Positions 1 to 34,481 of a stretch of 56,300 bases of DNA are shown piece after piece (the stretch's first letter is position 1; each line of letters starts with the position of its first letter). The position numbers were made by a program, and so were the translations under genes. The stretch comes from a virus: positions 1 through 56,300 of IMG/VR virus record IMGVR_UViG_3300029442_000006; one strand, written 5' to 3'. The notes under the pieces were generated by a model that saw only the letters and a program-made list of their open reading frames with translations, was not told where the DNA came from and did not search any database.

Positions 1-341
1 GGGGGGTTTCGGGCCCGCAACCCACTCGTCAATGGCTTTGCGCGTGTCGCGCTGGGTAGATGGTAACTTAATACCGGTTTCCTCGGTGAAGATTTTACGG
101 GATAGCGGGTTGCCAATATCGAGGATAGCTTTTAAGGCGTTGGGGTCTTTGGCCTCGATCGCCGCCGTCAACCGTTCCAGCGTCTTGGGGGCGACCTGCT
201 CACGGATTGGTAGCGCATCCACCCACTTGCGATATTCCTGCGCGTACTGGTCTTTCTTCGGTGACTTCGCCATCTCCGCCAACGTCATTCCTTTGGATGC
301 TGCAAAGCGGTCTTGTAGGGTTGTCGCTACTACTGGCGCTG
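1..341. repeat. diverged second copy/haplotype of 54942-55282
   Basis: Bases 1-341 align without gaps to 54942-55282 (offset 54941) with scattered substitutions, for example at 3 and 57, and a cluster near 203-211. Both copies read in the giant-gene frame through TLQDRFAASKGMTLAEMAK. In the left copy this block directly follows the 77-nt overlap region; in the right copy about 0.94 kb separates them. This is best read as a population variant carrying a deletion, not a second gene. Confidence 0.8.
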
Positions 342-2652
342 GCTCCGCTGCTGGGGGCTGCGCTACGGGCGGGGCGGGGGGTTGGGAGGCAAGCCATTCC
401 GTGTACTCTGCCTGCAACTGCTGTTGCTGGTCTGGCGGCAACGCTCGCGCTTGCTCCATTGTCATTCCACGTTCAGCCAAGAACTTCACTTGCGTCTCGC
501 GCGCTTCACCAACTGCGCGTAAAACGTCGGCTCCCGGCCCGGCGGGCTGTGTCGTTGCGAGTTTAGGTGAGGCAGCGGGAGCTTGAGGCGGGACAGGCGC
601 GACGGCGGGAGTAGCGGTTAAATCGCTGGAGTGTAGCACCCCTTGAAAATCTTGCGGGACTTGACCGGCTTTCTTCGCTTGCTCTAAAGCCGCTTCACGA
701 GTCAACGAATTTCCGTTCTCGTCAATAAATCCAAATTCCTTAGCCTCCCTCTGCTGCGGTGTCGTCCCTTTTAATGACGGGTCTAACGCGGCGTGACCGG
801 CTTCCAATCTACCGGTGTGCATCCAATTGTTTGCATCAATCCAAAACACCCCTGTAATCGGCGTAGCTTCATTACCCTCCAATGCCGCGCTATGCTTCTT
901 CAGAAGCTCCTCTAATGCCGGCGAGATTGCAGGTTTCACTTCCGCCCCGGCACCTACTACCGGCGTTACGGGCTGTGTTGTAGTAGTCGGTGCTTGCGTA
1001 GCATCGTTTGTAGGTTCAGTCCCAGCTTTGGTAGCATCGGCACCGGGGGCAGAAGTGATCAGTAAATTAGGAATAACAGGAGAAGAAGACGCTTTATTAT
1101 TTCCTGCGGGTGGGGCGTCTTTCTTAACCGGTGTCCACTTTGTCGTGCGATTCATCAGGAGGCCATCTAAATACGCCTTTACCCTCTCCGGTCTGTCCTC
1201 GTGGACGATGAAATCCTCAATCGCCTCAATCGTCTTTTGGATTTCGCCCTCTGGTATTTCAAGTCTCTTCAGTCCGTCGTAAATCCATTTCTTAATATCA
1301 CTACCGCGAACATCGTCAAACTTACGCTGGACAACTTCTTGACCTTCGTGTAGGTAAAATCTTTCGTCAAAAATGGGCTGTTTCCATTTATCTAAAACGG
1401 GTTTTCCGCTACCATCTTTCTGTTCTACCGAACCTTCCCAGCCCTGTCTCCCATCCGGTTTTGTGACAAATTTGTAACCTGTAATGTCAACTAACTTATC
1501 TCCCGCGAAGACATAATTTCTTGTCTTTCCCTTCTCGTAAATCACTTTCTTTGAAAGAGGCCCGGAATCACTATTAAACGAATGCTTGGCACTTTGAATT
1601 GCAAACAGTGAATCTCCTAACGCACTCGGCGCATGTTTCGCGGCTGCTTCAAAATTACCATTCGCCAACTCGCGTAACATTTCAGCCGAATTCTCGTAGG
1701 AACCGGCGGCCATCTGCAATCCGAACCCAGCCCCAACCACTCGCTGCATACTTTCCGGGAGGCCGCCAGTACCAACGGCCATTAGGGCTAACATTTCCGG
1801 CTCGCCCATTGCATTGAGCCATTCACGCGCCCCCTGCTGAAGCGAATCACCAAAGCGTGAGAGTCTATCAATTCTGTCCGCCTTTGGCAGGCCCGCAAGC
1901 GACCGATGAAAGTCATCAAGTTTAACGTCCGCATCAGCCTTTGGCATTATTTTGACCAGCCAATCACCAAACGGAACCTTCAACGGCTCCTGCGCTTGCG
2001 ACTGCAATCCGGCAACTGCATAAGAAATCGGAGCCGTCACCGGTAACGCTAGACCTTGACCAACCGCTGACAAGGCTTGTACCAAAGCGTCAATCGGATG
2101 CCCGGACTTTAGGGTTTTACCAGCTTCATAACTTTGCTGAAATGGTTTGAGAATTTTATCTTTCGTCTCAGGCGGTAGCAGATTGTCCCACGGTTGCGGT
2201 TGACGAGTTGGAGTCCGTTTAGCTTCCGGGCTGTTTTCGTAAGCCTTACCCTCTGCAAGCTCAAAGGGGGTAGGTGAGCGAAGTGTTGGAGGACGGTTGA
2301 TTTCCGCATCCAACTGCTCCTTTTTCAACCAGCCGAACGGTATTGATTGATTGAGTTGGGTAATCTGATTTCCGAGTTCCTGTATATTGGGGGGATTAGG
2401 AACCCTAGTCTTCTCGGCTGCGGCAACTGGAGTAACAATCGGAGCGATTGCTTTAGCGATCGGCTGAACCCCCGGAGTTCCATTGCTTCGGATGCCAGCC
2501 GGCCCGTTGCTGGCAAGCACTACCCCCGACGGCTTGACCGGAGCCTGTGCCTTGAATTGCTTAACGAAATCCCCCGCCGTAATCGGTTGCGATGGGGATG
2601 GGGTCGTGGTAGGTGAGGTCTTAAACGAATCAACAAATTCTTGGGCTGTCAT
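1..2652 (-). CDS. giant polyvalent protein, N-terminal part (runs off the left edge)
   Basis: The frame is open from ATG 2652 to base 1, with no stop. The first ~190 residues are Pro/Thr/Gln-rich linker; then comes a predicted helical region with Ala/Gly stretches, a segment with many charged residues, and Pro/Ala linkers. Near 530-440 lies the module GMTMEQARALPPDQQQQ, related to the following GMTLAEMAKSPKKDQ module. Codon 439-441 is the same TTG codon as the first codon at the right window edge, and the preceding reading frame is in phase (737 codons from ATG to that point). The protein therefore continues at 56300. Bases 364-1 instead represent a shorter variant of the same region. It lies 9 nt after the 2662-4077 gene with no clear Shine-Dalgarno, so translation may be coupled. 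Function of this part is unknown. Confidence 0.85.
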   Translation of the reverse strand, partial: MTAQEFVDSFKTSPTTTPSPSQPITAGDFVKQFKAQAPVKPSGVVLASNGPAGIRSNGTPGVQPIAKAIAPIVTPVAAAEKTRVPNPPNIQELGNQITQLNQSIPFGWLKKEQLDAEINRPPTLRSPTPFELAEGKAYENSPEAKRTPTRQPQPWDNLLPPETKDKILKPFQQSYEAGKTLKSGHPIDALVQALSAVGQGLALPVTAPISYAVAGLQSQAQEPLKVPFGDWLVKIMPKADADVKLDDFHRSLAGLPKADRIDRLSRFGDSLQQGAREWLNAMGEPEMLALMAVGTGGLPESMQRVVGAGFGLQMAAGSYENSAEMLRELANGNFEAAAKHAPSALGDSLFAIQSAKHSFNSDSGPLSKKVIYEKGKTRNYVFAGDKLVDITGYKFVTKPDGRQGWEGSVEQKDGSGKPVLDKWKQPIFDERFYLHEGQEVVQRKFDDVRGSDIKKWIYDGLKRLEIPEGEIQKTIEAIEDFIVHEDRPERVKAYLDGLLMNRTTKWTPVKKDAPPAGNNKASSSPVIPNLLITSAPGADATKAGTEPTNDATQAPTTTTQPVTPVVGAGAEVKPAISPALEELLKKHSAALEGNEATPITGVFWIDANNWMHTGRLEAGHAALDPSLKGTTPQQREAKEFGFIDENGNSLTREAALEQAKKAGQVPQDFQGVLHSSDLTATPAVAPVPPQAPAASPKLATTQPAGPGADVLRAVGEARETQVKFLAERGMTMEQARALPPDQQQQLQAEYTEWLASQPPAPPVAQPPAAEPAPVVATTLQDRFAASKGMTLAEMAKSPKKDQYAQEYRKWVDALPIREQVAPKTLERLTAAIEAKDPNALKAILDIGNPLSRKIFTEETGIKLPSTQRDTRKAIDEWVAGPKPP
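365..441. repeat. 77-nt assembly overlap, left copy
   Basis: This segment is identical over 77 bases to 56224-56300; base 364 (t) differs from base 56223 (g). An exact 77-nt end overlap is what a de Bruijn assembler run at k=77 leaves at a graph junction. Together with the continuous reading frame it indicates that the molecule is circular or circularly permuted, with a unit of about 55,859 bp. The assembler is not known to me. Confidence 0.85.
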
Positions 2653-4079: not shown

Positions 4080-4541
4080 TTAAAGCACTCCTTGCACCTG
4101 AATCAGTTGATCGTGAATCGCGGGCTGTTGATTCATCATTGCGTCATTTTGGGATAACAATTTACGATTCCAGTCAGTTGCCTTTTGTGCGCCACCGCCC
4201 CAGCCGTGAGCAAATTTATTGACCTCTCCCATCTTTTTTAGAAAAGGATTTTCCTGAGGGCTAGATGTCGCCGGGATTGTCTTCAAAGGTTCCGACGTTG
4301 GCTGAAACGGATTCGTTTGCGGATAAGCAGCATTGACAGTGCCTCCCGGTTGAATCAATGGAGCCGCAGAAGGTTGCACCGGTTGCTGGGATTTTCCACT
4401 TGCCGAACTACTTTGGTTGGTGACGGCATCATCTACCTTGACCTTGTTAAGTCCCAAAGCATCCTTCATTTTGTCAAACGAAGCTCCGCTATTATCTTGC
4501 TTCGGTTTGTTTCTGCTCAAGACCGCAGTTAAGCATGACAT
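4080..4541 (-). CDS. small virion-cluster protein, paralogue of 4554-4832
   Basis: 153 residues starting MSCL. The central segment SSSASGKSQQPVQPSAAPLI, followed by a Gly/Pro/Asn-rich tract and KKMGEVNKF.HGWGG, is shared nearly unchanged with the upstream 92-residue ORF. The N-terminal ~45 residues and C-terminal ~35 residues are unique. There is no known family and no membrane segment. A Shine-Dalgarno-like AAGGAG precedes the start. The duplication suggests this is the full-length parent copy. Likely a minor virion or assembly protein by location. Confidence 0.7.
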   Translation of the reverse strand: MSCLTAVLSRNKPKQDNSGASFDKMKDALGLNKVKVDDAVTNQSSSASGKSQQPVQPSAAPLIQPGGTVNAAYPQTNPFQPTSEPLKTIPATSSPQENPFLKKMGEVNKFAHGWGGGAQKATDWNRKLLSQNDAMMNQQPAIHDQLIQVQGVL

Positions 4542-4545
4542 AGTG
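4204..4545. repeat. tandem duplicated block, copy 1 (copy 2 about 4618-4836)
   Basis: Long identical stretches recur between ~4204-4545 and ~4618-4836, including the segment with cctcccggttgaatcaatgg and the intergenic string gtgttctccttaaaaaccca. Copy 2 lacks about 120 bases of copy 1 near the start-codon end. The repeated intergenic string shows that the duplication included the junction between two genes. Confidence 0.75.
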
Positions 4546-4553
4546 TGTTCTCC

Positions 4554-4832
4554 TTAAAAACCCATCGAACCATTTCCAGTGGTTTGTTGGGAGTCAGTTT
4601 GTGCGTCACCGCCCCAGCCGTGATCAAATTTATTGACCTCTCCCATCTTTTTTAAATGATTTCCCTGAGGGCTAGATGTCGCCGGGTTCAAATGCTTCGA
4701 CTTTGGCTGAAACGGATTCGTTTGCGGATAAGCAGCATTGACAGTGCCTCCCGGTTGAATCAATGGAGCCGCAGAAGGTTGCACCGGTTGCTGGGATTTT
4801 CCACTTGCCGAACTACTTTGTAAGCATGACAT
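4554..4832 (-). CDS. chimeric shortened duplicate of neighbouring genes
   Basis: 92 residues. The start and middle match the 4080-4541 protein (MSCL, SSSASGKSQQ, GEVNKF.HGWGG). The last ~13 residues (QTTGNGSMGF) match the end of the 4844-5506 protein (QTTGNVSMGF). It therefore looks like the product of an unequal tandem duplication that fused the two flanking genes. Start codon and AAGGAG ribosome-binding site are intact, so it may still be translated, but it could equally be a decaying remnant. Confidence 0.5.
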   Translation of the reverse strand: MSCLQSSSASGKSQQPVQPSAAPLIQPGGTVNAAYPQTNPFQPKSKHLNPATSSPQGNHLKKMGEVNKFDHGWGGDAQTDSQQTTGNGSMGF

Positions 4833-4843: not shown

Positions 4844-5506
4844 TTAAAAACCCATCGAAACATTTCCAGTGGTTTGATTTGAGTCAGTGACCGTGGACAA
4901 CCCCTTCAACTGACTGCCGATTGCTAGGGCTTGATTTAATGCTTGGTTTTCCTGCGACTGCGCTTGATTCACAGCACCGCTCTGGAGGCCAAGCTGCTGC
5001 GAGTAGTCCGCCTGCTTGTTCGCCTCTTGCTGGGCATAATTCTGTTCGGCAATGTTTTGAGCTTGGGTGTAGGCCGTGTTTTCCAAACCAGCCACTTGAC
5101 CGGTCACATCCGCCGCACTCTGCCGCGCGGCCTGTCCTGCCGCCGCTTGTGCGCCGCTTGAGTCAAGCATTCCCGCTGATTGTGCGCCGCCTTGAATCTG
5201 CGCTAAAGCATTCGCAAACGATTGCTGCCCGGCCAACTCAGTCGCGCCCACCGCATTGGATAAGGCTGGGTTGTTCACTGGATCAAACGCTCCGGGAGTC
5301 GGTGCGGCTGAAAAAATACCTTGCAAAGTGTTATTCACCAAATCCGTCGAAGCAACTTTTTCCGCCCCTCCCGAAGGATCGTACTGGTTTACTGCCTCGA
5401 CGCCCTTCGGCGCGAAACTCTTAAAGAAGGGAACCGACCACTCCGGCATATTGTTCACATTGGTCGTTCCACTCGAACTTGACATTCCACCAGATACGCA
5501 ACTCAT
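4844..5506 (-). CDS. Ala/Gln-rich virion-cluster protein, unknown
   Basis: 220 residues. The C-terminal half is an Ala/Gln/Asn-rich helix likely to form a coiled coil (AQNIAEQNYAQQEANKQADY). The N-terminus begins MSCVSGGMSSSSG and is Ser/Gly-rich. Composition resembles internal core or ejection proteins of short-tailed phages, but no family is recognised. The start overlaps the end of the sulfotransferase gene by 4 nt (ATGA). Its final residues are duplicated in the next small ORF. Confidence 0.75.
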   Translation of the reverse strand: MSCVSGGMSSSSGTTNVNNMPEWSVPFFKSFAPKGVEAVNQYDPSGGAEKVASTDLVNNTLQGIFSAAPTPGAFDPVNNPALSNAVGATELAGQQSFANALAQIQGGAQSAGMLDSSGAQAAAGQAARQSAADVTGQVAGLENTAYTQAQNIAEQNYAQQEANKQADYSQQLGLQSGAVNQAQSQENQALNQALAIGSQLKGLSTVTDSNQTTGNVSMGF

Positions 5507-6489
5507 TGTTGACCTACCTTGTCGTTTCGTTGTTTGAGAGCCTCCGCAATCGCATACAACTGTGTGCTGAACTGCTGTTGTTTTGCCTGTCCGCCGAGTA
5601 GGTAAGCCACGGCGAGCGGCACTTCGGTATAAAGTCGGTACGCCAATTCATGTCGCGGGCGACCGTTGCTGTACTCCCACGCCTGAATCACATTCGCAAT
5701 GGTTGGAGCGAGCAAAACTTTCGCATTCTGGTAGAACGTGTTCGTCGGCCATTTCAACAGAATGTTGGAAAGGCACGAGTTCATAATCGCCACATCCACC
5801 TTGTCGCCATCCAAAACGTGATCCCACGTCGAAGAAAGATTGAACAAATCAATCAACCACTGCTCCACTTCGGCGTTCCCCGCGCAAAGCTCATGGATGA
5901 CTGCGTAAAAATCCAAATGAATTTGAGACGGCTGGTAAGCCTCTCGAACCGCCCGACGGATGTTTGTATTGTATTCCGGCTCGGTCTTCTCAAAAATCAT
6001 ATTCACCCGGAAGGTTTTCAACAGATGATACCGCTTCCGATTAAACGGAAGGTTGAGGTGGTTGTAAATCCGCGCCATTACTGACTCATCATCCAACTGA
6101 TCAAAGTTCACGGAATACCCGCGAGTTCCAATCAAATCACTGCAAAGCTCTAATTTGTCCGAATAGAACCGGATTTGATGCTCGGTAAGCTTTCGGTCGG
6201 GGAAAGCGTGGTTGTAACTGGTGAGGCATTCATCGGCAGGGCGGTGAACAAACAACCACGGCGCATCGGGGAATAACCCGTTAATTTGCTCCCACGAAGT
6301 GAGCAGGGCGGCTCCACAATCGCCCACCGACTTAAATTCGCGGTCGGAGAGCTTGTTTTGATACTGCTCCAACCCGTCCACCGTAGCCACCGCTTCATGG
6401 TAACAGATCGCCTCCCCATCGCTGAAAAGATTAGAAAGCCATGTCGAGCGTGTCCGACAAAGCCCAGCTATGAAAAATTGTTTAGTCAT
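5503..6489 (-). CDS. sulfotransferase-like protein
   Basis: 328 residues from ATG 6489. The longer frame to 6558 would place the start inside the previous gene and upstream of the promoter-like element. The N-terminus FFIAGLCRTRSTWLSNLF matches the 5'-phosphosulfate-binding loop of PAPS-dependent sulfotransferases, starting within 5 residues of the chosen Met. Further on, FPDAPWLFVHRPADECLTSY matches the 3'-phosphate-binding segment (hR.P.d...Sy). It should transfer sulfate from PAPS to a hydroxyl or amine; the acceptor is unknown. It is first in a unit with virion proteins and the giant gene, preceded at 12 nt by a sigma-54-type element. A P-loop kinase with a similar fold is the main alternative. 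Confidence 0.75.
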   Translation of the reverse strand: MTKQFFIAGLCRTRSTWLSNLFSDGEAICYHEAVATVDGLEQYQNKLSDREFKSVGDCGAALLTSWEQINGLFPDAPWLFVHRPADECLTSYNHAFPDRKLTEHQIRFYSDKLELCSDLIGTRGYSVNFDQLDDESVMARIYNHLNLPFNRKRYHLLKTFRVNMIFEKTEPEYNTNIRRAVREAYQPSQIHLDFYAVIHELCAGNAEVEQWLIDLFNLSSTWDHVLDGDKVDVAIMNSCLSNILLKWPTNTFYQNAKVLLAPTIANVIQAWEYSNGRPRHELAYRLYTEVPLAVAYLLGGQAKQQQFSTQLYAIAEALKQRNDKVGQQ

Positions 6490-6501
6490 GCCACTTACTA
6501 C

Positions 6502-6517
6502 TGCAACTTTCGGGCCG
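6502..6517 (-). promoter_or_regulatory. sigma-54-type promoter element, copy A
   Basis: On the minus strand it reads CGGCCCGAAAGTTGCA, followed by GTAGT. GG and GC are spaced as in the -24/-12 consensus (TGGCACG-N4-TTGCA), with one substitution (C for T) at the first base. Start ATG 6489 of the sulfotransferase is 12 nt downstream of the core. The predicted +1 would be about 2 nt before the ATG, giving a nearly leaderless mRNA. Confidence 0.7.
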
Positions 6518-6524
6518 AGTTTTG

Positions 6525-6791
6525 TTAAAAGCTGTTTATGACGTTCCATTTGATCCAAAGGTTGTTCTGCACGCAGAGGTAAAGCGTGCCAGATTGATAA
6601 GCCACATCTCCCGCCGTTCCTGCGCCTGTGCTGGTCGCCGGTGGCGTAGGAACTAGGCGCAAGGTGGTGGCTTCAATTCGGTTTAAGTCCGTCCAAATGT
6701 TGTTATGTTCATCCCGCAAATCCTTCAATAACCGTTGCGGAGGAAGGACATCCTTAAACGGTGCTTGCTGGGGGGTGCGTAACCCGGTCAT
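6525..6791 (-). CDS. small tail-associated protein, unknown
   Basis: 88 residues from ATG 6791, which overlaps the nozzle gene stop (TAATG). The upstream in-frame extension to 6878 lies inside the nozzle gene and is unlikely. The C-terminal half, GDVAYQSGTLYLCVQNNLWIKW, resembles the short beta-hairpin segments found in phage tail or trimerisation modules (GDVAYNSGTLYVCTSAN type). The N-terminal half is helical (LLKDLRDEHNNIWTDLNRIE). It closes the capsid/nozzle unit. A small tail-tip or fibre-joining protein is likely (inference). Confidence 0.7.
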   Translation of the reverse strand: MTGLRTPQQAPFKDVLPPQRLLKDLRDEHNNIWTDLNRIEATTLRLVPTPPATSTGAGTAGDVAYQSGTLYLCVQNNLWIKWNVINSF

Positions 6792-8356
6792 TAGTGTTGC
6801 CCTCGCGCTCGAAAACTCGGCGCATACGAACCTAACGAGAAAAATCCACCCACCTTTTTGAAAGTAATCTGAAACCACCGACCGCTAACCGTAAAATCAA
6901 TCCGCGCCGGCCCGTAGCATTGCCCCACTAATTGCGGAACCGCATTCTGATCATTGATTTCATCAAAAGCGGTCACGTACACCTGCAATGGTGCTTCCGT
7001 GTTCGGAATCGGTAGCAGGTCAACCCGCAAGCCGTCCATGATTTTATAAACACTCTCATCACCGAAATCTATCAACCCGCTTGTCAGGACTGCCGTATTC
7101 GTGCCGGTAACACCCGCCGGTTCGTACAGGTAGAGAAAGCCTCCCGAATCTCCGACATAGCTCTTCTGGTCAAGCTGCGTCTCCGGTTTGACCCACGGAG
7201 TATCGCCGCCATCTACCCATGTCCCTGACTGAGAATCCCAAGTCTTATTTAGGGAAGGGGGGAGCGACATCTCTGCGGCAGTAAAAGGAAAGTCACGAGT
7301 ATAAAACGCATCGTTGTCGAGGTCGTACACCAATGCCTGCGCGGGGCTGCCATCCAGATTCCAGAACCCCGTCCAAATAATTTCTTTCTGATTCGGATTC
7401 CAAAAACCCCAGCACTCGCTCAAACGTGTTTGGTCAATCTGTTGCAACCACCAATTCCACACCCGATCCCCCATTGCGTGTGGTGTTCCGTCAAAGGTGT
7501 AAATGTTGTCATTGCCAATAAAATAAAGCCGGTCGCCTTGCTTATCGCTCACCGTGATTACGCTGGCTCCGCTCGGCGTTCCGGTTCGGCTGCTCACCTG
7601 CTGCCGTTGATAAACTAATTGCCCGCTCACGTAGGTAACGGCATGAATCGAGGCCTGTTTGAAAATAATCAGGTAATCACCCAGCTTGCGTAACGCCATC
7701 ACGGATGAGTTCTCACCCGGCACCAAGAAACTCCGCGCTTCATGCGTCAAATCTACTGTATTCCAATACTGAGTATTTCCCAACGCACTCCCCATGACCG
7801 ATTGCGGCAAGTCCGAGCCACCGCCTAACCCACCGACAAGCAGATGGTTTTGGTAGTCCGTAATGTATCTCCCCACTGGAACATTGCCGGCGGTTAGAAT
7901 TGACGGATCAAGCCCCGGAGGTTTTACCGCCGTCAACGGCACAAGGTTCCCGTCTGCCCCTTGAATCCACTGGATCGGGTCTGTGCCATTCGTAAAGTAA
8001 GCGTTATTCAGAAGTGACGCCATCTCCCAGCGATAGATTCTAGTCCCATGAAAATCCGCTGTGTTCAGCCTTGTCAGAGACTCCCCATCGTTTTTTACCT
8101 TGTAAAGCGACTGATTGGTTCCCACAATCATCATCGTGGAATCAGAGAAAAACGGAGCCATTTTGATAAAGGTCAATGCCCCGTCAATAGTTTGCACCAA
8201 TGCGGTGACGCCACCCACCATCTCAATCCGCCCCTTGAACGAGCGCACATTGCTCGCCACCGCCCAACTTCCTTGCGGCAACTCCCATTCCGGTACGGTC
8301 GTGACAATCCCCTTAATCGGGCTACCCACACGCAGGGATGTAAACCGGGTTGCCAT
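6791..8356 (-). CDS. tail nozzle / stabilisation-like protein
   Basis: 521 residues. Repeated beta-rich blades (WAVASNVRSFKGRIEMVGG, MMIVGTNQSLYKV, DYLIIFKQASIHAV, DRLYFIGNDNIYTFDG) match the beta-propeller of short-tailed phage nozzle proteins such as P22 gp10-like families. The start motif 'GIV...PEWELPQGSWAVASNVR' is typical of that group. It would close the portal-adaptor channel at the tail tip. It follows the secreted fibre-like gene by 4 nt. Short-tail morphology is inferred largely from this gene and the absence of tape-measure and tail-tube genes. Confidence 0.75.
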   Translation of the reverse strand: MATRFTSLRVGSPIKGIVTTVPEWELPQGSWAVASNVRSFKGRIEMVGGVTALVQTIDGALTFIKMAPFFSDSTMMIVGTNQSLYKVKNDGESLTRLNTADFHGTRIYRWEMASLLNNAYFTNGTDPIQWIQGADGNLVPLTAVKPPGLDPSILTAGNVPVGRYITDYQNHLLVGGLGGGSDLPQSVMGSALGNTQYWNTVDLTHEARSFLVPGENSSVMALRKLGDYLIIFKQASIHAVTYVSGQLVYQRQQVSSRTGTPSGASVITVSDKQGDRLYFIGNDNIYTFDGTPHAMGDRVWNWWLQQIDQTRLSECWGFWNPNQKEIIWTGFWNLDGSPAQALVYDLDNDAFYTRDFPFTAAEMSLPPSLNKTWDSQSGTWVDGGDTPWVKPETQLDQKSYVGDSGGFLYLYEPAGVTGTNTAVLTSGLIDFGDESVYKIMDGLRVDLLPIPNTEAPLQVYVTAFDEINDQNAVPQLVGQCYGPARIDFTVSGRWFQITFKKVGGFFSLGSYAPSFRARGQH

Positions 8357-8360: not shown

Positions 8361-9482
8361 TCAATTCAACTTGAGAAAGGTCATCGAACTGCCAGCTTTT
8401 AAGTAAAGATTGACAGCAGATTTTTTGGCTTGGCTCCACACGAGCGAAAAATCATTTGTCGCTGAATTTAGGTTGAACAGCGTCCCTTTGAAGTGAACAA
8501 AAGTATAAAACGCAGCTATAGAATCATCGACCATGATATTACAAGTTGTAGATAGTATATTTGTTCCGAAAGCGGCTTGCTGTGCATTCGTCCAATAAGA
8601 AGGATACCGTGCAAACCAATTCCATTGCGTGAGAATAAACGAATCAATAGATTCTTGAACATTAAATCTGAAATTTGTTCCTGAAAAAGCGATTTCAATA
8701 AACCCACTATTGACGGCATTGGTTTGTGAAAAATATAAATTCCCTTCCACCAAGTAAGTAGCGTTGCTTTCCATCGTAAAACTTAAATCCGGATCCACTG
8801 CGGCATAATTTGTGATGTTGGTAAAATTGCTCCTTACTGTATCGTTACTTTTCACCAAGCAGACAGGGGTTTTAACTCGGCTTGTAAATGCGGTGACGTT
8901 GGAGTTAATGATAGTCTGAACGTAAGTGGTGACTGAGTTCGTATCAAACGGAGGAACATTGGTTGAAATTAAAACGGTGTTACTGCCGCTGCCGCCTGAA
9001 AACAATTGAAAGTTCGTTCCGTCAAAGACTGTTTTATAGAATTGATCAGCCACAATCGCGCCAGTCGTCAACGCATTGGTTCCAATAATGATCGGAACCG
9101 CACCAATCGGGTAGCTGTTCCCGTTCAAAACCTGTAAAGTCGTCGCCCCGGAGTTGTTGTATGCCGCTTTGAAAGTGAACTCCATGCCTGCGTCGTAATT
9201 GGTGTAGGTAAAGGGAACACTTAATTGAACAGCATTGGCCACACCTGAATCCACCGCAAACAACCGAATCTCGCGCCCATCCAAGTAATGCCCCCGGTTC
9301 GACCAGTCAATAATCGCCGCCTTCAGAGTACGAATCTGCGCCGCACCATCGCTGTACGAATCGTTGTTGAATGGGCGAGAGGGATCAATGTTGACCAAAC
9401 CCGGTGCCGTATAGTTTAGCTGACCATGCGCCAGCACCGCTGTCATAATCCAAATACTTCCAATGAGTCGTGCGATTTTCAT
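8361..9482 (-). CDS. secreted Asn/Thr-rich fibre-like virion-cluster protein
   Basis: 373 residues from ATG 9482, chosen because GGAGAAAAGTAAA precedes it; ATG 9497 is the alternative. Residues 1-20 (MKIARLIGSIWIMTAVLAHG, then Q) form a Sec signal peptide with an A-H-G cleavage-type end. The mature part has YLDGREIRLFAVDSGVANAV, an ATTLQVLNG segment typical of tail-fibre/head-fibre beta repeats, and many TN pairs. The C-terminal ~180 residues look like a TNF/C1q-like jelly roll (YLVEGNLYFSQT..., SSMTFLKLN). A signal peptide on a gene sitting between capsid and nozzle genes is unusual. Confidence 0.75.
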   Translation of the reverse strand: MKIARLIGSIWIMTAVLAHGQLNYTAPGLVNIDPSRPFNNDSYSDGAAQIRTLKAAIIDWSNRGHYLDGREIRLFAVDSGVANAVQLSVPFTYTNYDAGMEFTFKAAYNNSGATTLQVLNGNSYPIGAVPIIIGTNALTTGAIVADQFYKTVFDGTNFQLFSGGSGSNTVLISTNVPPFDTNSVTTYVQTIINSNVTAFTSRVKTPVCLVKSNDTVRSNFTNITNYAAVDPDLSFTMESNATYLVEGNLYFSQTNAVNSGFIEIAFSGTNFRFNVQESIDSFILTQWNWFARYPSYWTNAQQAAFGTNILSTTCNIMVDDSIAAFYTFVHFKGTLFNLNSATNDFSLVWSQAKKSAVNLYLKAGSSMTFLKLN

Positions 9483-9605
9483 TTTACTTTTCTCCATTCA
9501 CGAAGCCACGGCGATGGGTTGCTTACCCGCTGGACGAGTGGAAAGCGGAGGCTAAGACACCCTTTCCAGACAACAACCCACCGCCGATAAACCTCGATTT
9601 TTTGT

Positions 9606-10079
9606 TTAACCCTTAGCGGAGTCCACGCCGGCGTGCAATGCGACCGCCAACTTGACGAGCGCATCCTTCTTGGCTTCAGGCGCGTACTTCCCGCCCTTCT
9701 TCTCAATGATCAATTTCAGAGTTTCTTCATCCAATTCTTCAAAAGCCATCGTCTTGGCTTTGGTGATTTCGCGCTTCTGAATGCTGGTGAGCCGGTCTTG
9801 CCGGTTCCAAATCCCACGAGTGCCAACTGTTTTCTGAACCTTGCAGTCCTTGAATTGTTGGCTGTCCTCGATGATTGTCGCGAGTTCTTCCGCCGTGCTA
9901 TCACGGAACGTGCCATCGTCCTTTTTCTGCTTCACCATCGTTTGCAGAAACTTGTTTCCCGTGTCCAATGTTCCAAACACCAACCCGGTCAAGTCATCCT
10001 TTTGAGGGGTGAAGTTAAGCATCCCGTTATCCGTCGCGATGCCATAGCTGCCACTTGCTGCTTCATATACTTTTGCCAT
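9606..10079 (-). CDS. head-cluster protein of unknown function
   Basis: 157 residues. The N-terminal 70 residues are mixed (MAKVYEAASGSYGIATDNGM), then KKDDGTFRDSTAEELATII, and a helical lysine-rich C-terminus (KKGGKYAPEAKKDALVKLAV) that resembles an SAP/HeH-type helix-extended-loop-helix. It sits two genes after the capsid. A minor capsid or head-completion role is possible from position only. No family recognised. Confidence 0.7.
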   Translation of the reverse strand: MAKVYEAASGSYGIATDNGMLNFTPQKDDLTGLVFGTLDTGNKFLQTMVKQKKDDGTFRDSTAEELATIIEDSQQFKDCKVQKTVGTRGIWNRQDRLTSIQKREITKAKTMAFEELDEETLKLIIEKKGGKYAPEAKKDALVKLAVALHAGVDSAKG

Positions 10080-10119
10080 TGCTACTCTCTCCGCCTTTCT
10101 TTTTTTTGGTTGTGAGAAA

Positions 10120-10145
10120 GGGCGGCTCCGGTGAAGGAACCGCCC
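10120..10145. terminator. hairpin, possible weak terminator
   Basis: GGGCGGCTCC and GGAACCGCCC flank a 6-base loop, with one non-canonical pair. It lies 13 nt beyond the stop of the 10159-10569 gene. On the minus strand the tail is TTTCTC, only weakly U-rich, so read-through is likely. Confidence 0.5.
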
Positions 10146-10158
10146 CAGTCTCAGTTGA

Positions 10159-10569
10159 TTAGTTGCCCCATTCAGACCAGATGAACGCCGCTGTTACGTT
10201 GGTGTTGACACTTCGAGCCGAGATTGGCCCGTTATATCCTTCCCCAAGAAACAACTGCTCACCGGTTCCCGCCGGGATGGTAATATCTGCAACATCATTG
10301 GTCGTGTACTTTGAGCCTAACCTCAGCCCCAACTGACCGGGGCCGCTGTTATAGACGTTGACGGATATGCGGAACCCCGAACCAGCCGAGTAAGAACCAA
10401 TGACTGCTGTGACATTGGTCGCGTCTAACGACGCAACCGCTGTCAAATTGGTTCCGTGACTGATTCCGACGATTCGCCCTTGAGCTTCGACTTTGGGAGC
10501 CAAGCAAAGAGCGACGATAACGCAGACGACCATTGCGACTGCGCTGATGATTTTGAATGCTTTCTTCAT
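10159..10569 (-). CDS. small secreted protein next to the capsid gene
   Basis: 136 residues. A clear Sec signal: KK charge, hydrophobic core IISAVAMVVCVIVALCLAP, and VEAQ cleavage end. The mature part (~105 residues) is beta-rich and Thr/Asn-rich (NLTAVASLDATNVTAVIGSY; ADITIPAGTGEQLFLGEGY), about the size of a head-decoration protein. AAGGAAA precedes ATG 10569. The slot directly after the major capsid gene usually holds a decoration protein, yet a decoration protein assembled in the cytoplasm needs no export. An envelope-directed protein is the alternative. Confidence 0.75.
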   Translation of the reverse strand: MKKAFKIISAVAMVVCVIVALCLAPKVEAQGRIVGISHGTNLTAVASLDATNVTAVIGSYSAGSGFRISVNVYNSGPGQLGLRLGSKYTTNDVADITIPAGTGEQLFLGEGYNGPISARSVNTNVTAAFIWSEWGN

Positions 10570-10601: not shown

Positions 10602-10635
10602 CAGGGCTGGACGGGGTTTAGTCCAACCAGCCCTG
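10602..10635. terminator. hairpin after the major capsid gene
   Basis: CAGGGCTGG and CCAGCCCTG form a perfect 9-bp stem with a 16-nt loop, 14 nt beyond the capsid stop codon. There is no U-tract on the minus strand. It may be an mRNA 3'-end stabiliser or attenuator separating capsid from downstream expression. Confidence 0.5.
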
Positions 10636-10648: not shown

Positions 10649-11815
10649 TTAGGCTTCTGTTCCGAGCGAGGAGGCTCCATGCAGTAACATGCAGGACTTC
10701 TCTTGGATTCGGAGGCCGAAGTCCGTATAGATGTCCCCGATGGTTCCGTCGGTCGTGAGTCCGTTTTCTGGAGTGAGTTTCCGCTCCAGCATCCATTGAC
10801 GGGTCTTGGTCTGCTGATCGCGGGTCGTCACGATTTCCAGTGCCGCCGGGTCAATAGCCGCCATGACATCGGAGCAGTTGTTTGAGAGGTGATCCACAAT
10901 CATCAGTTTCCACGTCTTCCCGCACATCCGGAAGGAGGTGATGTTGATGTTGAGAATGTTCTCATACACCGGCGTGATGTTGCCCTTATTGAACACGGCG
11001 CGATCAAACAACTCGCTACCGAGCCGGCTGACAAAGAGCCAAACGGTGCTGGAACGCATAAACCGGGTTCCCTGCGTCATCGCCGTCCGGAGCTTGTTGA
11101 TCGTGAACTGATTACTGCCGAACCCGCTGACGTTCGTGGTAATCATGTTCATGACGCCGCCGGTCTTGTACAGGGTGTTCCCTTGCGGGCCGGTGGTCTG
11201 CGCTTTGGCGTTGAACCACAAACCACGGTCAATCCCGCGCTTGTGTTCGTACATCGCCTGTTCGCGGTTGTGATAACCGCGTGCGCCGCCGTAGAACTTC
11301 ACGGTCTCAACCCATCGGCTTTGACCGTAGGTGTCCCAAGCGTTTTCGGCAAAGTTCGTGACTTGTGCCGGAACGCGCGAAACAACCGACGGACGCTGCG
11401 CCAATTCCTCGACCGCCGCCGAACCGAGATTCGGAATCGAACCCACGGTAAAGCCGGTGTTGTTGTCGAGGGTGACTTGACCGGTCGCGTAATTGACCGC
11501 CGTGACTAGGGCCACGGTCTGCCAATCCACGCGCAAGGTCAAACCGGGGCGAATGTACTTCACGTCATCCGCCGAAACGGTGATGTTCACACCGTCATTG
11601 GCTTGCGTCACCACGGTCACATAACCGGGGTCTTGGTCTTGAATGTTGATGCGGAACTCACGGTCGTCAACCGTCACGCGGTTGAGAGCCATAAGCAGCG
11701 TCAAGATTGTGGTTTCTTCGGGGCGGTACTTGAAAATCTCATTCGAGATGTCCAGTGGCCGCATCCCTGCTGGGGTTGTCGTCAGATATGCCTGACTGTT
11801 TACTGGTGCTGGCAT
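10649..11815 (-). CDS. major capsid protein (SU10/DUF5309-like)
   Basis: 388 residues. The N-terminal arm RPEETTILTLLMALNRV resembles the conserved start of SU10-type HK97-fold capsid proteins. The central region, REQAMYEHKRGIDRGLWFNA followed by a Gly-rich turn and GGVMNMITT, matches the helix and loop that precede the peripheral domain in that family. A good ribosome-binding site (GAGGAAAATACA) precedes ATG 11815. Neighbouring scaffold-like and decoration-size genes support the call. It assembles the icosahedral shell. Confidence 0.85.
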   Translation of the reverse strand: MPAPVNSQAYLTTTPAGMRPLDISNEIFKYRPEETTILTLLMALNRVTVDDREFRINIQDQDPGYVTVVTQANDGVNITVSADDVKYIRPGLTLRVDWQTVALVTAVNYATGQVTLDNNTGFTVGSIPNLGSAAVEELAQRPSVVSRVPAQVTNFAENAWDTYGQSRWVETVKFYGGARGYHNREQAMYEHKRGIDRGLWFNAKAQTTGPQGNTLYKTGGVMNMITTNVSGFGSNQFTINKLRTAMTQGTRFMRSSTVWLFVSRLGSELFDRAVFNKGNITPVYENILNINITSFRMCGKTWKLMIVDHLSNNCSDVMAAIDPAALEIVTTRDQQTKTRQWMLERKLTPENGLTTDGTIGDIYTDFGLRIQEKSCMLLHGASSLGTEA

Positions 11816-13193: not shown

Positions 13194-13377
13194 TTTCGAT
13201 TTCTTTCTTCTCCGCCATTCTTTCTTGGTTTTGAAACAGACTCGCGAGTAAGGGCGAGCTACCTGCTTCGTGATTGCTCACTGCCAAATTGGTAGCGGGA
13301 GATGAAGTTGAATCATCAGTCTCCTGCGTATGAAGCAGGCGTGTTACCGGGTTACACCATCCCGCAGTCTTAAATTT
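13194..13377. other. intergenic gap
   Basis: 184 bases between the coiled-coil gene and the scaffold gene. I see no sigma-54-type element, no strong hairpin with a U-tract, and no convincing ORF. GGAGAAG lies ~15 nt before the scaffold ATG. Confidence 0.5.
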
Positions 13378-14709: not shown

Positions 14710-15953
14710 TAAAATTCAATCCCCAATTCTGCCGCCTTCTCAAAGGCGTCTTCGGCCTGCTTCACCGCCGCTTCTTGAATGTCCACATCATGTCCAGAAA
14801 TCATTTTAGACACTTCCTTGATCGTCGCTTCGCACTCTTTCAGGCTCTCACCCGTTGCGATAACGTCACCGATCTCAATGCTTTCGTGAGGCTGGGGCGC
14901 AATCCACAATTCGTCATTCACCTTGACTGCGTTAGAAAACGCCACATATGGCCATGCTTCCTTCTCGACATCCACCTTGACCCAATGTTTCGCAGCGTAA
15001 GGACAATGTATCCGCGCCAGCACAGCATATTTTGCCGTCGGTTCAGGAACCACAAGCCGACCTTCCGCGCCGGCGTAGATGATTTCGGATAGATTCGACC
15101 AGAGCTTGCCGTAACACGGGCCGGGCGGGATCGGCATCCGCACTGTCATGTCAATCAAGTAGCCCTTGCGGTCATCCTCAGCCACGCGAAGCTCGTTCGA
15201 ATAGAACGTCGCGCCGCCTAACTTCTTAAACGCCGGAGCCACCCCCGCGTTGCAATCTCGAACGGTTTCCCACAAATCAGGATAATCAAACACCCGCCCA
15301 ACGTAGCCGCAGTCTTTAACCTCAATCCCAGCTAACACCCGCGACGGGTACTCCCCATTGATTACCCACGTGTCGCAACCAATCTCAACACCATCAATCT
15401 TTTCTTCCGCCAAAAACTTAAACTCTTCACGGAACGGCCCTAAACCATTCAGCAAATCAATCTTCAACGTCTCAAAATTGGCCGCCTTGAATGTTTCGCG
15501 GAGTCCGCGATAGCGAGACAGCTTGATAAAAGTCTCCGGATGCTTGGCGCAATACCTTTCCAGTGCTTCCATGCCAGTGATCTGTTCGGTTCCCGGTGTC
15601 GGCATTCCTCTATGACTTTGCAGGTTGCGAATCAACCAGCGGTCGAGTTCTAATTTCTCCGAATCTCCAGCCCCCCACACTCGCCGCCCTAGCCGCCGCT
15701 GTTCATTTGCCCAACTTCCAAAATAATTGTCCGGACAAATAATCAGTTCAGTGTCGTCTAGGTAGTCGTCAAGGTCTTCCACCCGCTCAATCTCGTTAAA
15801 GCCTGAGCCAATGGCCGCACCCTTAATGTCCGGGAAAGCCGTCGCCCACGGCGTCCAGTAGCGCACCTTGCCAAAATCTTGCGCCAGCCGTAACGCCAGC
15901 CAGAGGTTTAACCCGTGATCAACCAGAAGGCAGGATTTTTTGGAAAAATCCAT
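14709..15953 (-). CDS. ATP-grasp ligase-like protein (PurD-like architecture)
   Basis: 414 residues from ATG 15953, overlapping the portal stop (TGATG). GTG 15956 is the alternative. The N-terminal ~115 residues form a Rossmann-like domain (CLLVDHGLNLWLALRLAQDF; ELIICPDNYFG). The central region has ATP-grasp hallmarks: ETFIKLSRYRGLRETF (phosphate-binding Lys strand) and FLAEEKIDGVEIGCDTWVING (hinge and metal-binding strand, like the EE..pG.E..vd of PurD). The end IATGESLKECEATI matches the C-terminal lobe of the same family. ATP-grasp enzymes join a carboxylate to an amine via acyl phosphate. Substrate is unknown. The purine pathway is unlikely since no other pur gene is present. Confidence 0.65.
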   Translation of the reverse strand: MDFSKKSCLLVDHGLNLWLALRLAQDFGKVRYWTPWATAFPDIKGAAIGSGFNEIERVEDLDDYLDDTELIICPDNYFGSWANEQRRLGRRVWGAGDSEKLELDRWLIRNLQSHRGMPTPGTEQITGMEALERYCAKHPETFIKLSRYRGLRETFKAANFETLKIDLLNGLGPFREEFKFLAEEKIDGVEIGCDTWVINGEYPSRVLAGIEVKDCGYVGRVFDYPDLWETVRDCNAGVAPAFKKLGGATFYSNELRVAEDDRKGYLIDMTVRMPIPPGPCYGKLWSNLSEIIYAGAEGRLVVPEPTAKYAVLARIHCPYAAKHWVKVDVEKEAWPYVAFSNAVKVNDELWIAPQPHESIEIGDVIATGESLKECEATIKEVSKMISGHDVDIQEAAVKQAEDAFEKAAELGIEF

Positions 15954-18079
15954 CACCGCTCCGGTACCCCGCCGGGACTGCGTGGAATCTTGGTCGCCAT
16001 CCCGCCAAGCCCTTTCAAGCTTTCCAGCGCGTGTTTCTTGTCGTTCTCGCTCGACTTGTGCGCGTTCTGTAAGCCGATTTGTTCCGGCTTGGAAGCTCCA
16101 CCAACTCGCGACGGGATTAAGCCACCAGCCTTTTCAAGCTGCCGTTGTGCATCGGGCGGTAAATCTTTGTACTTCATGGAAGCAACCACCGCCGGCGGTG
16201 GGTGCGGTTGCGAATCCATCATCGCCTTTTTCTTCGCAAATTCCTCGTCTGTGAGTAAGAACCGCTCGGCGGAGTCCAAGCCCAAGCCTTCCACAATCTC
16301 GCGCCAGAGTTCTTGCTGCTTAATCCTCGGCGCAACCTCCGGCATCGCCTGAGCCATCTGCCCAGCCTGCGCCAGTAATGACGCGCGAGTCTTAGTGTCC
16401 ACCGTCCGGTTGACACCCAACACCTCCACATGCCACCGCCCTTGAATGTCTTCCGGAGTAACCTCCACCCAATCCTTGAAGCCACGAGCCATTAAAACCT
16501 TGTTTTGTCCGATAATCTTGAGCTTTTGGGGGACAGTCATCACCTGCTGGATGTCAGCGCAAATCATGTTCAGCCCGTCTTCGATCCCCTGCTCGGCCAT
16601 CAAAGCGGTAAAACTCTTCGCCTGATTCGAGGCCGAGAGAAGCTGTTGAATCCCGCCTAACGTCTCCGTTCCTTTGCCTAATCCAGAGTCACCAGCAATT
16701 CCCCGCGAATAGTCCGGCGTCGCTCCCACCTTCGCAATGCTCAATCGCGCCCGTTCCATTGATTGCCAAACATCAGGCGGAACATTCGGTGCTTTCCAGT
16801 CTAGTATGCCTGCCACGCGCCCCACACGAATGCGCTTGCCCGGCTCACGAGTCAAATCCGCCAAATCCTCCACACCAGCATCATGCTCAACCAAAGTCAT
16901 CGGATTACGCTGCTGCTCCATCATATCGGCGGATAGGTTCGTCAGGACGTTGAGCTTGCCCTGCAAATCTTCCAATTGCTCCGGAATCCCTCGCGCCTGC
17001 CAAACCTGTGGTGAACGCGGCTTAAACTTAATCTCCGAATACGGTTTCAGCCCGTGGTAATGTGGGTTCGCCATCTCTTTGAGTAGAAACTTGCGATCCC
17101 CAATAATCATAATCTTATCGCAGCCGTAACCCAGTGGGCCGGATTCGCTATAAATCAACAATTCGGCATACTTCACCGCATTCTGCCCGTACACCTCATT
17201 TCCACCACCGCGTACATCATAACCAACCGCCGCCAACCGCTCGTAAAGGTCAAAATGTCTTTCCGACCACTCGCCTAAGGCGTAACCTTCCGTCCGATCC
17301 AGCGCGAAAAAGCCTTCCATCTCTTCGGTGTGTTGGTAGCCGGCAATCTTTCCCAACGCCTGAACTTCCCGCAGCGGAAGGATTAACCGCTCGATGAAGT
17401 ACGGCATCTCCTGAATGGTCGCACCGGTCGCCGCCGGGTAGCAATCAAAGCGCGAAATCACCCGCGACTTCGGCCATGCTTCAAAACTTTGAATCGTCTC
17501 GCGCTTCAACCCAATCTTGATACCGTATTCGGAACCGGCAATGATTGGAACATTGCGAGTCGTCCGTACCATCTTCGGTTGGACAATGTGCCGCTCTACG
17601 CCATTGCCAAAAAAGGTCGCCTCTTGCGCCTGATAGAACTTCGCCATCTTGTACTTGACGTGTTCGTTCAAGACGTAACCCATCACCAACTGCATCATCT
17701 CGCGCTCGACTTGGCCTTGATCATCCTTCGCCTTGACGTTATGCACCACGTCTTTAGCGAAAATCGGAGCCATAATTGTCTCAATGTTTTCCCATGCGAC
17801 ATTGGAAGTCTCTGGCTCAAAGAACCTCGACCAAAACGGCCAATCCCCCGGCAGAATGCTATTCACCTGCATCCAGTGGCCGAGCGCAGCCTCCTTAAAC
17901 GACCGATCAAACCGCTCCGAGACTGCCATCCGCTCCAAAACGTATTTCACCCGCGCATCTTCTTGAACCCGATTATTGCGCGGAGCCGTTAAAACAGTCG
18001 CGCTCAACGTGGAAAATGAAGCCTCCGGACCGTCGCCGGGGGCTGTAACAGGGGCAGCATTGAGTGTGGTGGTAGGCAT
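15953..18079 (-). CDS. portal protein
   Basis: 708 residues, long as in P22/N4-like portals. N-terminal region PWFW-like segment GDWPFWSRFFEPETSNVAWE, the ENIETIMAPIFAKD helix typical of short-tailed phage portals, then beta wing and stem region (GKLNVLTNLSADMMEQQ; TPDYSRGIAGDSGLG). The C-terminal ~100 residues are Gln/Pro/Lys-rich and may be a barrel or disordered tail. It forms the dodecameric DNA channel and binds the terminase. It lies 8 nt after the 76-residue gene. Confidence 0.8.
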   Translation of the reverse strand: MPTTTLNAAPVTAPGDGPEASFSTLSATVLTAPRNNRVQEDARVKYVLERMAVSERFDRSFKEAALGHWMQVNSILPGDWPFWSRFFEPETSNVAWENIETIMAPIFAKDVVHNVKAKDDQGQVEREMMQLVMGYVLNEHVKYKMAKFYQAQEATFFGNGVERHIVQPKMVRTTRNVPIIAGSEYGIKIGLKRETIQSFEAWPKSRVISRFDCYPAATGATIQEMPYFIERLILPLREVQALGKIAGYQHTEEMEGFFALDRTEGYALGEWSERHFDLYERLAAVGYDVRGGGNEVYGQNAVKYAELLIYSESGPLGYGCDKIMIIGDRKFLLKEMANPHYHGLKPYSEIKFKPRSPQVWQARGIPEQLEDLQGKLNVLTNLSADMMEQQRNPMTLVEHDAGVEDLADLTREPGKRIRVGRVAGILDWKAPNVPPDVWQSMERARLSIAKVGATPDYSRGIAGDSGLGKGTETLGGIQQLLSASNQAKSFTALMAEQGIEDGLNMICADIQQVMTVPQKLKIIGQNKVLMARGFKDWVEVTPEDIQGRWHVEVLGVNRTVDTKTRASLLAQAGQMAQAMPEVAPRIKQQELWREIVEGLGLDSAERFLLTDEEFAKKKAMMDSQPHPPPAVVASMKYKDLPPDAQRQLEKAGGLIPSRVGGASKPEQIGLQNAHKSSENDKKHALESLKGLGGMATKIPRSPGGVPER

Positions 18080-21461: not shown

Positions 21462-21638
21462 ATGCCCCTCAACCCAACACTCCAAGCCAAGCACCTACGC
21501 CAGTTACGCACCTGCTTAGAGCGTGCGCAACGCGACATTCAACGGACGTTGCGCGAGTATAACTGCCCATCGTATGCCGACGATAAATTGACCGCAGTTT
21601 GTGACACCATCTTGGCTACCTTAGAGGCGACAAAGTGA
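21462..21638 (+). CDS. small early protein, unknown
   Basis: 58 residues, helical and basic (KHLRQLRTCLERAQRDIQRT), two Cys. ATG 21462 is 2 nt after the previous stop and the stop overlaps the next start (GTGA), supporting translation in the operon. Confidence 0.6.
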   Translation: MPLNPTLQAKHLRQLRTCLERAQRDIQRTLREYNCPSYADDKLTAVCDTILATLEATK

Positions 21639-22033
21639 ACCACTGTAAGGCCATGTTCGTCGGGCTGGCTACGTTGCTGGTGATGCTTGGCACGTCTGCA
21701 ATGGCCGATGATATTAAGCTCCTGAAGGCGTTCCGGGTTGTCGAATCGTCTAACAACTACCAAGCCATCGGTGATAATGGTAAATCATGGGGTGCGTACC
21801 AGTTTCACGCCGCAAGATGGCATGAGGTTAGCAAGGCAAGCTACCGCCACGCCACGAATGCCGAGCAAGACGAAGCAATGGTCAAGGAAATCAGCATCGG
21901 TCTTAGAATCGCCCACCAGCGCGGGATTGACCCGGTGAGCGCGGTGGCGAGCTTGCACCACGCCGGTCACGTGACGCTTGACGACGTGGTTTATATCGCG
22001 AAAATTAAAAAAGCGTTAGGAGAAAAAATATGA
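21635..22033 (+). CDS. secreted lysozyme-like (SLT/GH23-type) protein, endolysin candidate
   Basis: 132 residues from GTG 21635. Signal peptide at residues 1-24 (AMFVGLATLLVMLGTSAMA, then DD). The mature part starts LLKAFRVVESSNNYQAIGD and contains GKSWGAYQFHAARW. The Glu of VVESSN is the expected catalytic acid of lytic transglycosylase/lysozyme folds, and the Gly-x-x-Gln-Phe strand also fits. It would cut peptidoglycan from the periplasmic side, needing no holin for export. Placed in the early operon, not with the membrane proteins at 34.5-35.2 kb. An ejection or virion lysin is an alternative. Confidence 0.7.
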   Translation: MNHCKAMFVGLATLLVMLGTSAMADDIKLLKAFRVVESSNNYQAIGDNGKSWGAYQFHAARWHEVSKASYRHATNAEQDEAMVKEISIGLRIAHQRGIDPVSAVASLHHAGHVTLDDVVYIAKIKKALGEKI

Positions 22034-29711: not shown

Positions 29712-29956
29712 ATGCGGAAATTGAGTGATAAGTGTTTTAGATAAATCGAGTTCAAACTCCGGCCAAGTTTTTTAGCTAAGACTCTCGCCGGAACCTTACC
29801 GTAAAACATCCGCAAAACTTTTGTTTCTTCGTCAGTCCAACCGCGATTGCGCGGCGCGTAAGATTCTGCCAACTGTTGCAAATCGGAAAAGTCAATCGTC
29901 AAACATCTAGCGTTAGGTGATTTTTTGTTTTTACTTTGAGAAGAACCGGTCGCCAT
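29708..29956 (-). CDS. Myb/SANT-like DNA-binding protein
   Basis: 82 residues. WTDEETKVLRMFYGKVPARV followed by LAKKLGRSLNSIYLK is a Myb/SANT-like helix-turn-helix. Strong ribosome-binding site AAAGGAGACTATAA. It overlaps the phosphoesterase gene by 58 nt. May be a regulator; target not known. Confidence 0.65.
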   Translation of the reverse strand: MATGSSQSKNKKSPNARCLTIDFSDLQQLAESYAPRNRGWTDEETKVLRMFYGKVPARVLAKKLGRSLNSIYLKHLSLNFRI

Positions 29957-31683: not shown

Positions 31684-31916
31684 CAATTTCCTTCCCAATG
31701 TCTTTCCACTGCCGCCCGGTTGTAAGGGCGGTCTTGACCGGCGGCGTGCCACTTTATTCGGCAGGTATTGCACCGCCAGTAGGCGACGGATTCCTTAACA
31801 CCCTCAACGGCGCAGCCGGTGGCGATTCTAGCGCATTTCGGGCAGAGTTCGCGGCGTTGTGCCTTGAACGCCTTACCACTTAGAAATTCGTCTAGGAATG
31901 ACGGTGTATCATTCAT
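31683..31916 (-). CDS. small zinc-ribbon protein
   Basis: 77 residues. CPKCARIATGC and WRCNTCRIKWH give two Cys pairs. Stop overlaps the phosphoesterase start (TGATG). The TnpB element is inserted just before its start codon, which may have removed its original ribosome-binding site. Confidence 0.7.
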   Translation of the reverse strand: MNDTPSFLDEFLSGKAFKAQRRELCPKCARIATGCAVEGVKESVAYWRCNTCRIKWHAAGQDRPYNRAAVERHWEGN

Positions 31917-33212: not shown

Positions 33213-33377
33213 ATCAACGCATTCCTCGGCTTCACCACCAATCGCATCGTCAAGCAGTTGCGCTTTTAACATACACACCACGCCGATAGCTTCGGCGATT
33301 GTCACGTCAGATTCTTGCGAGTATCGCTTAATCACGGATCCCAACTCGGCAAGAAGCTGGTTGGCGCCGTTGTCCAT
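33210..33377 (-). CDS. small acidic protein, unknown
   Basis: 55 residues from ATG 33377 (overlaps the previous stop, TAATG). Helical (ESDVTIAEAIGVVCMLKAQL), acidic end. The TnpB element abuts its stop codon. Confidence 0.65.
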   Translation of the reverse strand: MDNGANQLLAELGSVIKRYSQESDVTIAEAIGVVCMLKAQLLDDAIGGEAEECVD

Positions 33378-33901: not shown

Positions 33902-33915
33902 GATTTACAAGTTCC

Positions 33916-34440: not shown

Positions 34441-34481
34441 AACTTTACAAGTTCCTTGTAGGTTTGGTTGGTTTGAATGCT

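Follow-up and report, generated by a model that had tools for sequence, protein, structure and literature searches.

The phage and its late genes

The window, by which is meant here the whole stretch of 56,300 nucleotides that was analysed, is the entire IMG/VR record IMGVR_UViG_3300029442_000006. Judged by the capsid and portal families that it encodes (PF17236 and PF23899), it is a short-tailed phage of the SU10 type. Its core structural genes are these:

6791 to 8356, minus strand: nozzle-like virion structural protein (phrog_3287, E=2e-46; PDB 9nwi_Y, E=4e-9)
10649 to 11815, minus strand: major capsid protein (PF17236 SU10_MCP, E=3e-16), without signal peptide
15953 to 18079, minus strand: portal (PF23899 SU10_portal, E=8e-15), without signal peptide
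38320 to 39405, minus strand: putative head-tail adaptor, so named from position only, without signal peptide

The adaptor candidate at 38320-39405 has no Pfam or PHROG match, and hhalign was negative for an adaptor; the SU10_adaptor family (PF24175) has no match anywhere in the record. TerL matches phrog_2. The PDB match of the nozzle-like gene comprises six chains.

Interspersed with these genes, on the same strand, are those whose products begin with a signal peptide or something like one, together with a putative holin-like gene. The slash marks the predicted cleavage site.

8361 to 9482, minus strand: tail fibre protein, 373 aa, predicted to be exported; signal peptide MKIARLIGSIWIMTAVLAHG/QLNYTA; directly upstream of the nozzle-like gene
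10159 to 10569, minus strand: predicted exported protein, 136 aa; signal peptide MKKAFKIISAVAMVVCVIVALCLAPKVEA/QGRIVG (APKVEA/QGRIVG); directly after the capsid gene
33377 to 33901, minus strand: putative exported protein, 174 aa; signal peptide SVKA/DTSA
33916 to 34440, minus strand: putative exported protein, 174 aa; signal peptide KINA/QSSA
34482 to 34853, minus strand: 123-aa protein, predicted to be exported; signal peptide GAWA/QSNN and one internal hydrophobic segment; possibly a lysis or envelope protein
34877 to 35113, minus strand: putative holin-like protein, 78 aa; one C-terminal membrane segment, no Pfam match
35229 to 35591, minus strand: 120-aa protein, weak signal peptide candidate; hydrophobic N-terminus MMILLAALMFCTTNSTG/QVTQ; ATGA overlap with the fibre gene
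35588 to 38323, minus strand: fibre-like protein, 911 aa; signal peptide MKRILTTLGLILCVCSVHA/QYQG (CSVHA/QYQG)

Two of these products resemble fibres. Protein 8361-9482 aligns over residues 74-237 with a tail-fibre module from Pseudomonas phage vB_PpuM-Voja-6 (pairwise E=2e-10, 29% identity). Protein 35588-38323 contains GDGTSQTTA and long ATNAGYATNSGY repeats, and is called fibre-like on its composition and repeats; database searches gave no relative for it. Its ATG and the stop codon of the gene before it, 38320-39405, overlap. Database searches with protein 10159-10569 gave no match, and AlphaFold models of its mature form and that of 8361-9482 were unusable (pLDDT 47 and 30, respectively). 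The small protein 33377-33901 ends in Trp, and a C-terminal aromatic residue of this kind would recall small outer-membrane barrels; family searches gave no match for it.

The record has other features of note. A perfect 9-bp stem (CAGGGCTGG and CCAGCCCTG, 10602-10635, minus strand) lies in the gap between the capsid gene and 10159-10569; it lacks a T run and is a possible attenuator or processing site. The structural gene cluster also holds a tRNA-Met (CAT) at 13290-13366 (minus strand) and a sulfotransferase-like gene at 5503-6558 (minus strand; PF13469, borderline). At 4080-4832 (minus strand) there is a partial tandem duplication, in which the 92-aa ORF 4554-4832 duplicates a segment of 4080-4541 as well as the end of 4844-5506. 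A metallophosphoesterase-like gene (29899-31773, minus strand) appears to be split by an intein that carries a LAGLIDADG-like domain, on weak Pfam matches. A phage-encoded sigma-54 activator (39452-40519, minus strand; PF00158, E=7e-58, with a GAFTGA motif) has no evident DNA-binding domain at its end, and may redirect host sigma-54 promoters. The right-end ORF is a giant DarB-like methylase/helicase, part of a DarB-like polyprotein that occupies 40578-56300 and 1-2652 (minus strand) as a right-end ORF of 5240 aa and a left-end ORF of 884 aa. These two are in one frame, and sequence is repeated at the two ends of the record; the genome may therefore be circular or permuted, with a single gene of about 6000 codons.

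Signal peptides in the window

An initial annotation had remarked that the genes directly after the capsid and directly before the nozzle begin with textbook signal peptides, and had counted at least seven minus-strand structural-region proteins that look exported. Here, N-termini were scored with a rule-based scorer using a threshold of 4.2. Six minus-strand late genes have a positive n-region, a hydrophobic h-region and an A-x-A-like site, as expected for Sec/signal peptidase I substrates, with scores from 4.09 to 6.01. Protein 10159-10569 scores strongly (6.01), and its ATG is preceded by an AAGGA Shine-Dalgarno sequence; the fibre-like protein 35588-38323 scores 5.19. Protein 8361-9482, at 4.09, is the weakest of the six. 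Its start is placed at 9482 because a GGAGA Shine-Dalgarno sequence stands there, and the longer ORF reaching 9497 is therefore not taken as the start. The seventh protein, 35229-35591, fails the scorer because it has no positive charge at its N-terminus. Thus, six of the seven are clear and one is only weak. No signal peptide was found on the capsid protein, the scaffold candidate, the portal, the terminase or the nozzle-like protein 6791-8356, which serves as a control from the same cluster.

These scores exceed what chance delivers. The threshold was passed by 6 of the window's 46 genes; when residues 2-45 were shuffled, a mean of 0.54 genes per genome passed, with a maximum of 3 in 500 shuffles. 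No internal window passed (0 of 913). As background, 35 of 781 genes scored in 80 phage loci, nine of the 35 being in the focal genomes L065 and L019. The signal peptides of 10159-10569 and 8361-9482 are thus borne out as Sec/signal peptidase I signals, above chance and at starts backed by Shine-Dalgarno sequences. This leaves little room for the view that misplaced starts or too lenient a predictor produced the pattern. The scorer is, of course, rule-based and is not SignalP; the Shine-Dalgarno sites that fit the starts, the null tests and the negative control phages described below nevertheless make such an artefact hardly credible.

One more clear signal peptide belongs to a lysozyme- or transglycosylase-like protein at 21635-22033, on the plus strand, opposite to the fibres.

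Fibres with signal peptides in other uncultured phages

Relatives of the window were sought in several ways. IMG/VR single-protein scans with the major capsid protein, TerL, 10159-10569 and 8361-9482 found no relative. Genome-contig scans with the window capsid protein and with an alignment of capsid proteins from the G037 group (defined below) likewise found none, and hence no host. Nor were homologues found for any of the seven signal-bearing proteins that the window encodes. Scanning with the DarB-like helicase region yielded 80 loci; in 45 records from that scan, protein searches with the capsid and nozzle proteins of the window were negative, and a search for the SU10_MCP family among the records of the scan identified G037 (50 kb) and G044. 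The capsid gene of G037, used as a query, then led to G055-G061.

The signal-peptide pattern was seen again in six other uncultured phage records, none of them a close relative of the window. Five (G037, G057, G059, G060 and G063) form an SU10-like group with signal-bearing fibre genes, called here the G037 group; the sixth, G013, stands apart. Profile comparison did not confirm homology between the window nozzle and that of the G037 group, so the correspondence is read from position.

In G037, G057, G059 and G060, runs of fibre- or tailspike-like genes near the structural genes bear signal peptides. In G037 these runs flank both sides of a contiguous stretch after the tail genes, and the signal-bearing products have 349 aa (SYTHA/Q), 1489 aa (PLYG/Q), 255 aa (PVHA/T), 693 aa (SLSA/Q) and 200 aa (GAHA/Q). 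G057 has six such genes in tandem (about 542, 1245, 633, 485, 1054 and 205 aa), G059 at least five and G060 one (1209 aa). The proteins of the group carry repeats (TNKTLTSPTLTTP and TNANITVDAKGRITAA) that we take to be typical of phage fibres. The fibre module of window protein 8361-9482 shares a similar stretch with the 1489-aa G037 protein in a MAFFT alignment; by BLASTP the two proteins are not significantly similar.

A signal peptide together with the N-terminal domain that follows it is common to proteins of 349, 542, 1165 and 1209 aa, at 30-63% identity, while the remainder differs. A scan with the mature N-terminal domain only found the fifth record, G063, whose homologue is also signal-bearing. 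The five homologues, which span 349 to 1209 aa, thus combine a conserved signal peptide and N-terminal domain with a variable C-terminal part, beside tail genes; as far as sequence can tell, this is the classical layout of a fibre. Homologues that lack the hydrophobic segment would have counted against the initial annotation; all five of these, which are one family, keep it. Two further proteins, G037_693 and G059_667, are alike across their length, signal peptide included.

A signal-free exception in G059 is a fibre-like ORF (L112 5112-6722), which may be a piece of a broken gene. The lysozyme-like gene that adjoins the fibres in G057 and G060 has no signal peptide, and holin-dependent release at lysis is therefore plausible there.

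An adaptor with a signal peptide

In G013 (45 kb), signal-bearing genes form a run of their own. One of them encodes a bona fide SU10_adaptor of 251 aa (PF24175, Pfam E=1e-21) whose domain begins at residue 23, and a 21-residue signal peptide (MKRIISLFLFFCIIGIHSAEA) is fused precisely ahead of it. The ATG stands behind an AGGAGG ribosome site, and there is no other start near the domain. Such a signal is rare among adaptors: it was found on 1 of 20 in 49 records, that of G013 only, with one start, in G018, being ambiguous. In the structural regions of 16 control phages with SU10-type adaptors, seven sporadic genes score, and none of these has Gln at +1.

For the next gene of G013 (820 aa, with a signal-like start), position is the only ground for calling it nozzle-like; profile comparison by hhalign did not support a nozzle identity. 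The terminase ORF of G013 also begins with a signal peptidase II-like (SPII-like) N-terminus, which was set aside because the ORF overlaps the preceding gene and has ATG codons further in. A GroEL chaperonin is encoded in G013 as well (L114 4735-6372; PF00118, phrog_5725).

Cleavage sites and cysteines

The first signature of processing is the residue after the predicted cut. Of the 23 focal signal peptides, 18 have Gln at +1, compared with 4 of 23 from the background (Fisher P=4e-5), a contrast obtained with a site chooser that was blind to the +1 residue except that Pro was excluded, and somewhat flattered because the scorer that picked the focal set gives a small bonus to Q, A, D, E and S at +1. 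In the window, four of the six scored sites have it. A Gln at +1 in roughly half of the sites, or in more than half, is the mark of the Q-rule, which was described for the Bacteroidetes. Taken together, the A-x-A/Q junctions, the Gln at +1 and mature domains that start at the predicted cut point to cleavage by signal peptidase I.

Cysteines provide a second signature. The mature signal-bearing proteins of the G037 group contain 1.84% Cys, against 0.53% in the control structural proteins chosen, and the number of cysteines is even in 15 of 18 (P=0.004). In G037_693 and G059_667 the conserved Cys columns are close pairs; the N-terminal domain of the fibres has a Cys pair in four homologues and not, as a pair, in the fifth; and cysteines in the proteins of the group are gained or lost in neighbouring pairs. 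Paired cysteines fit disulfides formed outside the cytoplasm, as would be expected of exported proteins. The window's own signal-bearing proteins contain 0.59% Cys and show no enrichment.

Comparison with known systems

The closest precedent is in the Nixviridae phages of Porphyromonas gingivalis, where phage signal peptides likewise end before Gln, following the export rule of the host (PMC10367356). There, five Q-rule genes of unknown function were read as host-surface modifiers, and the signal on the major capsid proteins was ascribed to the prohead protease (PMC10367356). The present phages differ in bearing signals on recognisable tail fibres and on an SU10 adaptor. In the Bacteroidetes themselves, most substrates of signal peptidase I have Gln at +1 (PMC5837995, PMC10653852), as do most of the sites here; that rule, of course, is cellular. 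Short-tailed phages of the SU10 type (PMC9509320) have the capsid and portal families of the window, with the PF24175 adaptor in relatives, whereas the 16 control phages lack the tail-gene signal-peptide pattern.

Morons of the lambda Lom type are likewise exported and encoded among tail genes, but Lom is an outer-membrane barrel rather than a fibre. Virion proteins with a Sec signal peptide do exist, as the coat proteins of filamentous phages of the M13 type; these are extruded through the envelope as filaments and have no head or tail. No report of Sec signal peptides on the fibres or adaptors of tailed phages was found in a search of the open-access literature.

Where the signal-bearing proteins might act

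Three readings had been proposed at the outset: that these proteins act at the host envelope, that part of virion maturation happens outside the cytoplasm, or that the hydrophobic ends have another use. For the fibres we prefer the second, since the signals stand on proteins with recognisable fibre modules and on the G013 adaptor. The cleavage-site signature, with its A-x-A/Q sites, disfavours a use other than export, and action at the envelope probably fits the small proteins at 33377-34853.

The explanation favoured here, to which we give about an even chance, is that tail parts are exported to the periplasm and joined to heads at lysis. The two fibres of the window, and probably also 10159-10569, would be synthesised as Sec pre-proteins. 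The pre-proteins would cross the inner membrane, a cut by signal peptidase I would expose an N-terminal Gln, and the exported proteins would fold and oligomerise in the periplasm. They would bind the tails of DNA-filled heads only once holin and lysin had breached the inner membrane. Head, portal and core tail proteins would remain cytoplasmic, except, among the core tail proteins, in G013. A two-compartment assembly specified further, in which heads form in the cytoplasm while Sec-exported tail parts (fibres, in G013 also the adaptor ring and perhaps the nozzle) mature with disulfides in the periplasm and dock at lysis, is possible, with somewhat less than an even chance. Export, cleavage, the formation of pyroglutamate, presence in virions and joining at lysis are all steps that we infer from sequence. 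Fibres or tailspikes of P22 and T4 attach to finished particles in vitro. Against joining at lysis stands the normal need of tailed phages to close the portal with adaptor and nozzle shortly after packaging, so that the DNA is retained.

The main rival to the export of tail parts holds that the exported proteins are not virion proteins at all, but proteins of the surface or periplasm that derive from fibres. Their target would be the infected cell or its debris; they could, for example, mask receptors and so prevent superinfection or keep progeny from being lost on debris. The published reading of the P. gingivalis phage signal peptides as tools of host-surface modification (PMC10367356) speaks for this, as do the exported barrel that lambda encodes between its tail genes and the host-like extracellular domains in several of the signal-bearing proteins (HYDIN-like repeats in G057_1054, for example); the proteins at 33377-34853 fit it well. 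Yet the genes lie within late structural runs, with overlapping starts, and G013 puts a signal on a bona fide SU10 adaptor. Further, G037, G057, G059 and G060 have few or no signal-free fibre genes, which would leave receptor binding to the nozzle. On balance, we consider this rival unlikely.

A different proposal keeps the proteins at the inner membrane: their hydrophobic N-termini would tether tail proteins there, and virions would assemble at that site with little or no release to the periplasm. This would explain a signal on an adaptor without the transport of finished tails, and the terminase ORF of G013 has a hydrophobic N-terminal stretch too, although perhaps from a wrong start. The well-formed A-x-A/Q sites and the mature domains that start at the cut argue for cleavage, and the paired cysteines for an oxidising compartment, so that a tether seems improbable. 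It might also be supposed that nothing special is assembled here, and that the set is an ordinary mixture of lysis or lysogenic-conversion proteins with fibres that have recombined with a host secretion signal. A few exported proteins for lysis or for the envelope are common in phage genomes, and 34482-34853 and 34877-35113 resemble a lysis pair. The signals, however, are conserved on fibre N-terminal domains at 30-63% identity, and at least three phage lineages have them on several tail genes. Random capture would not maintain this, and such a mixture is therefore very improbable.

Implications for the assembly of tailed phages

On the accepted view, tailed phages go through the whole of their assembly in the cytoplasm. 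If the export of tail parts is real, the rule of wholly cytoplasmic assembly would be broken. With conserved secretion signals on fibres, and also on one adaptor, across several uncultured lineages, another order of assembly can be put to a direct test. It would also follow that disulfides are open to receptor-binding proteins, and that the export rules of the host can shape these proteins. For those who annotate such genomes there is a warning as well: exported proteins encoded beside phage tail genes may be fibres, and not host contamination.
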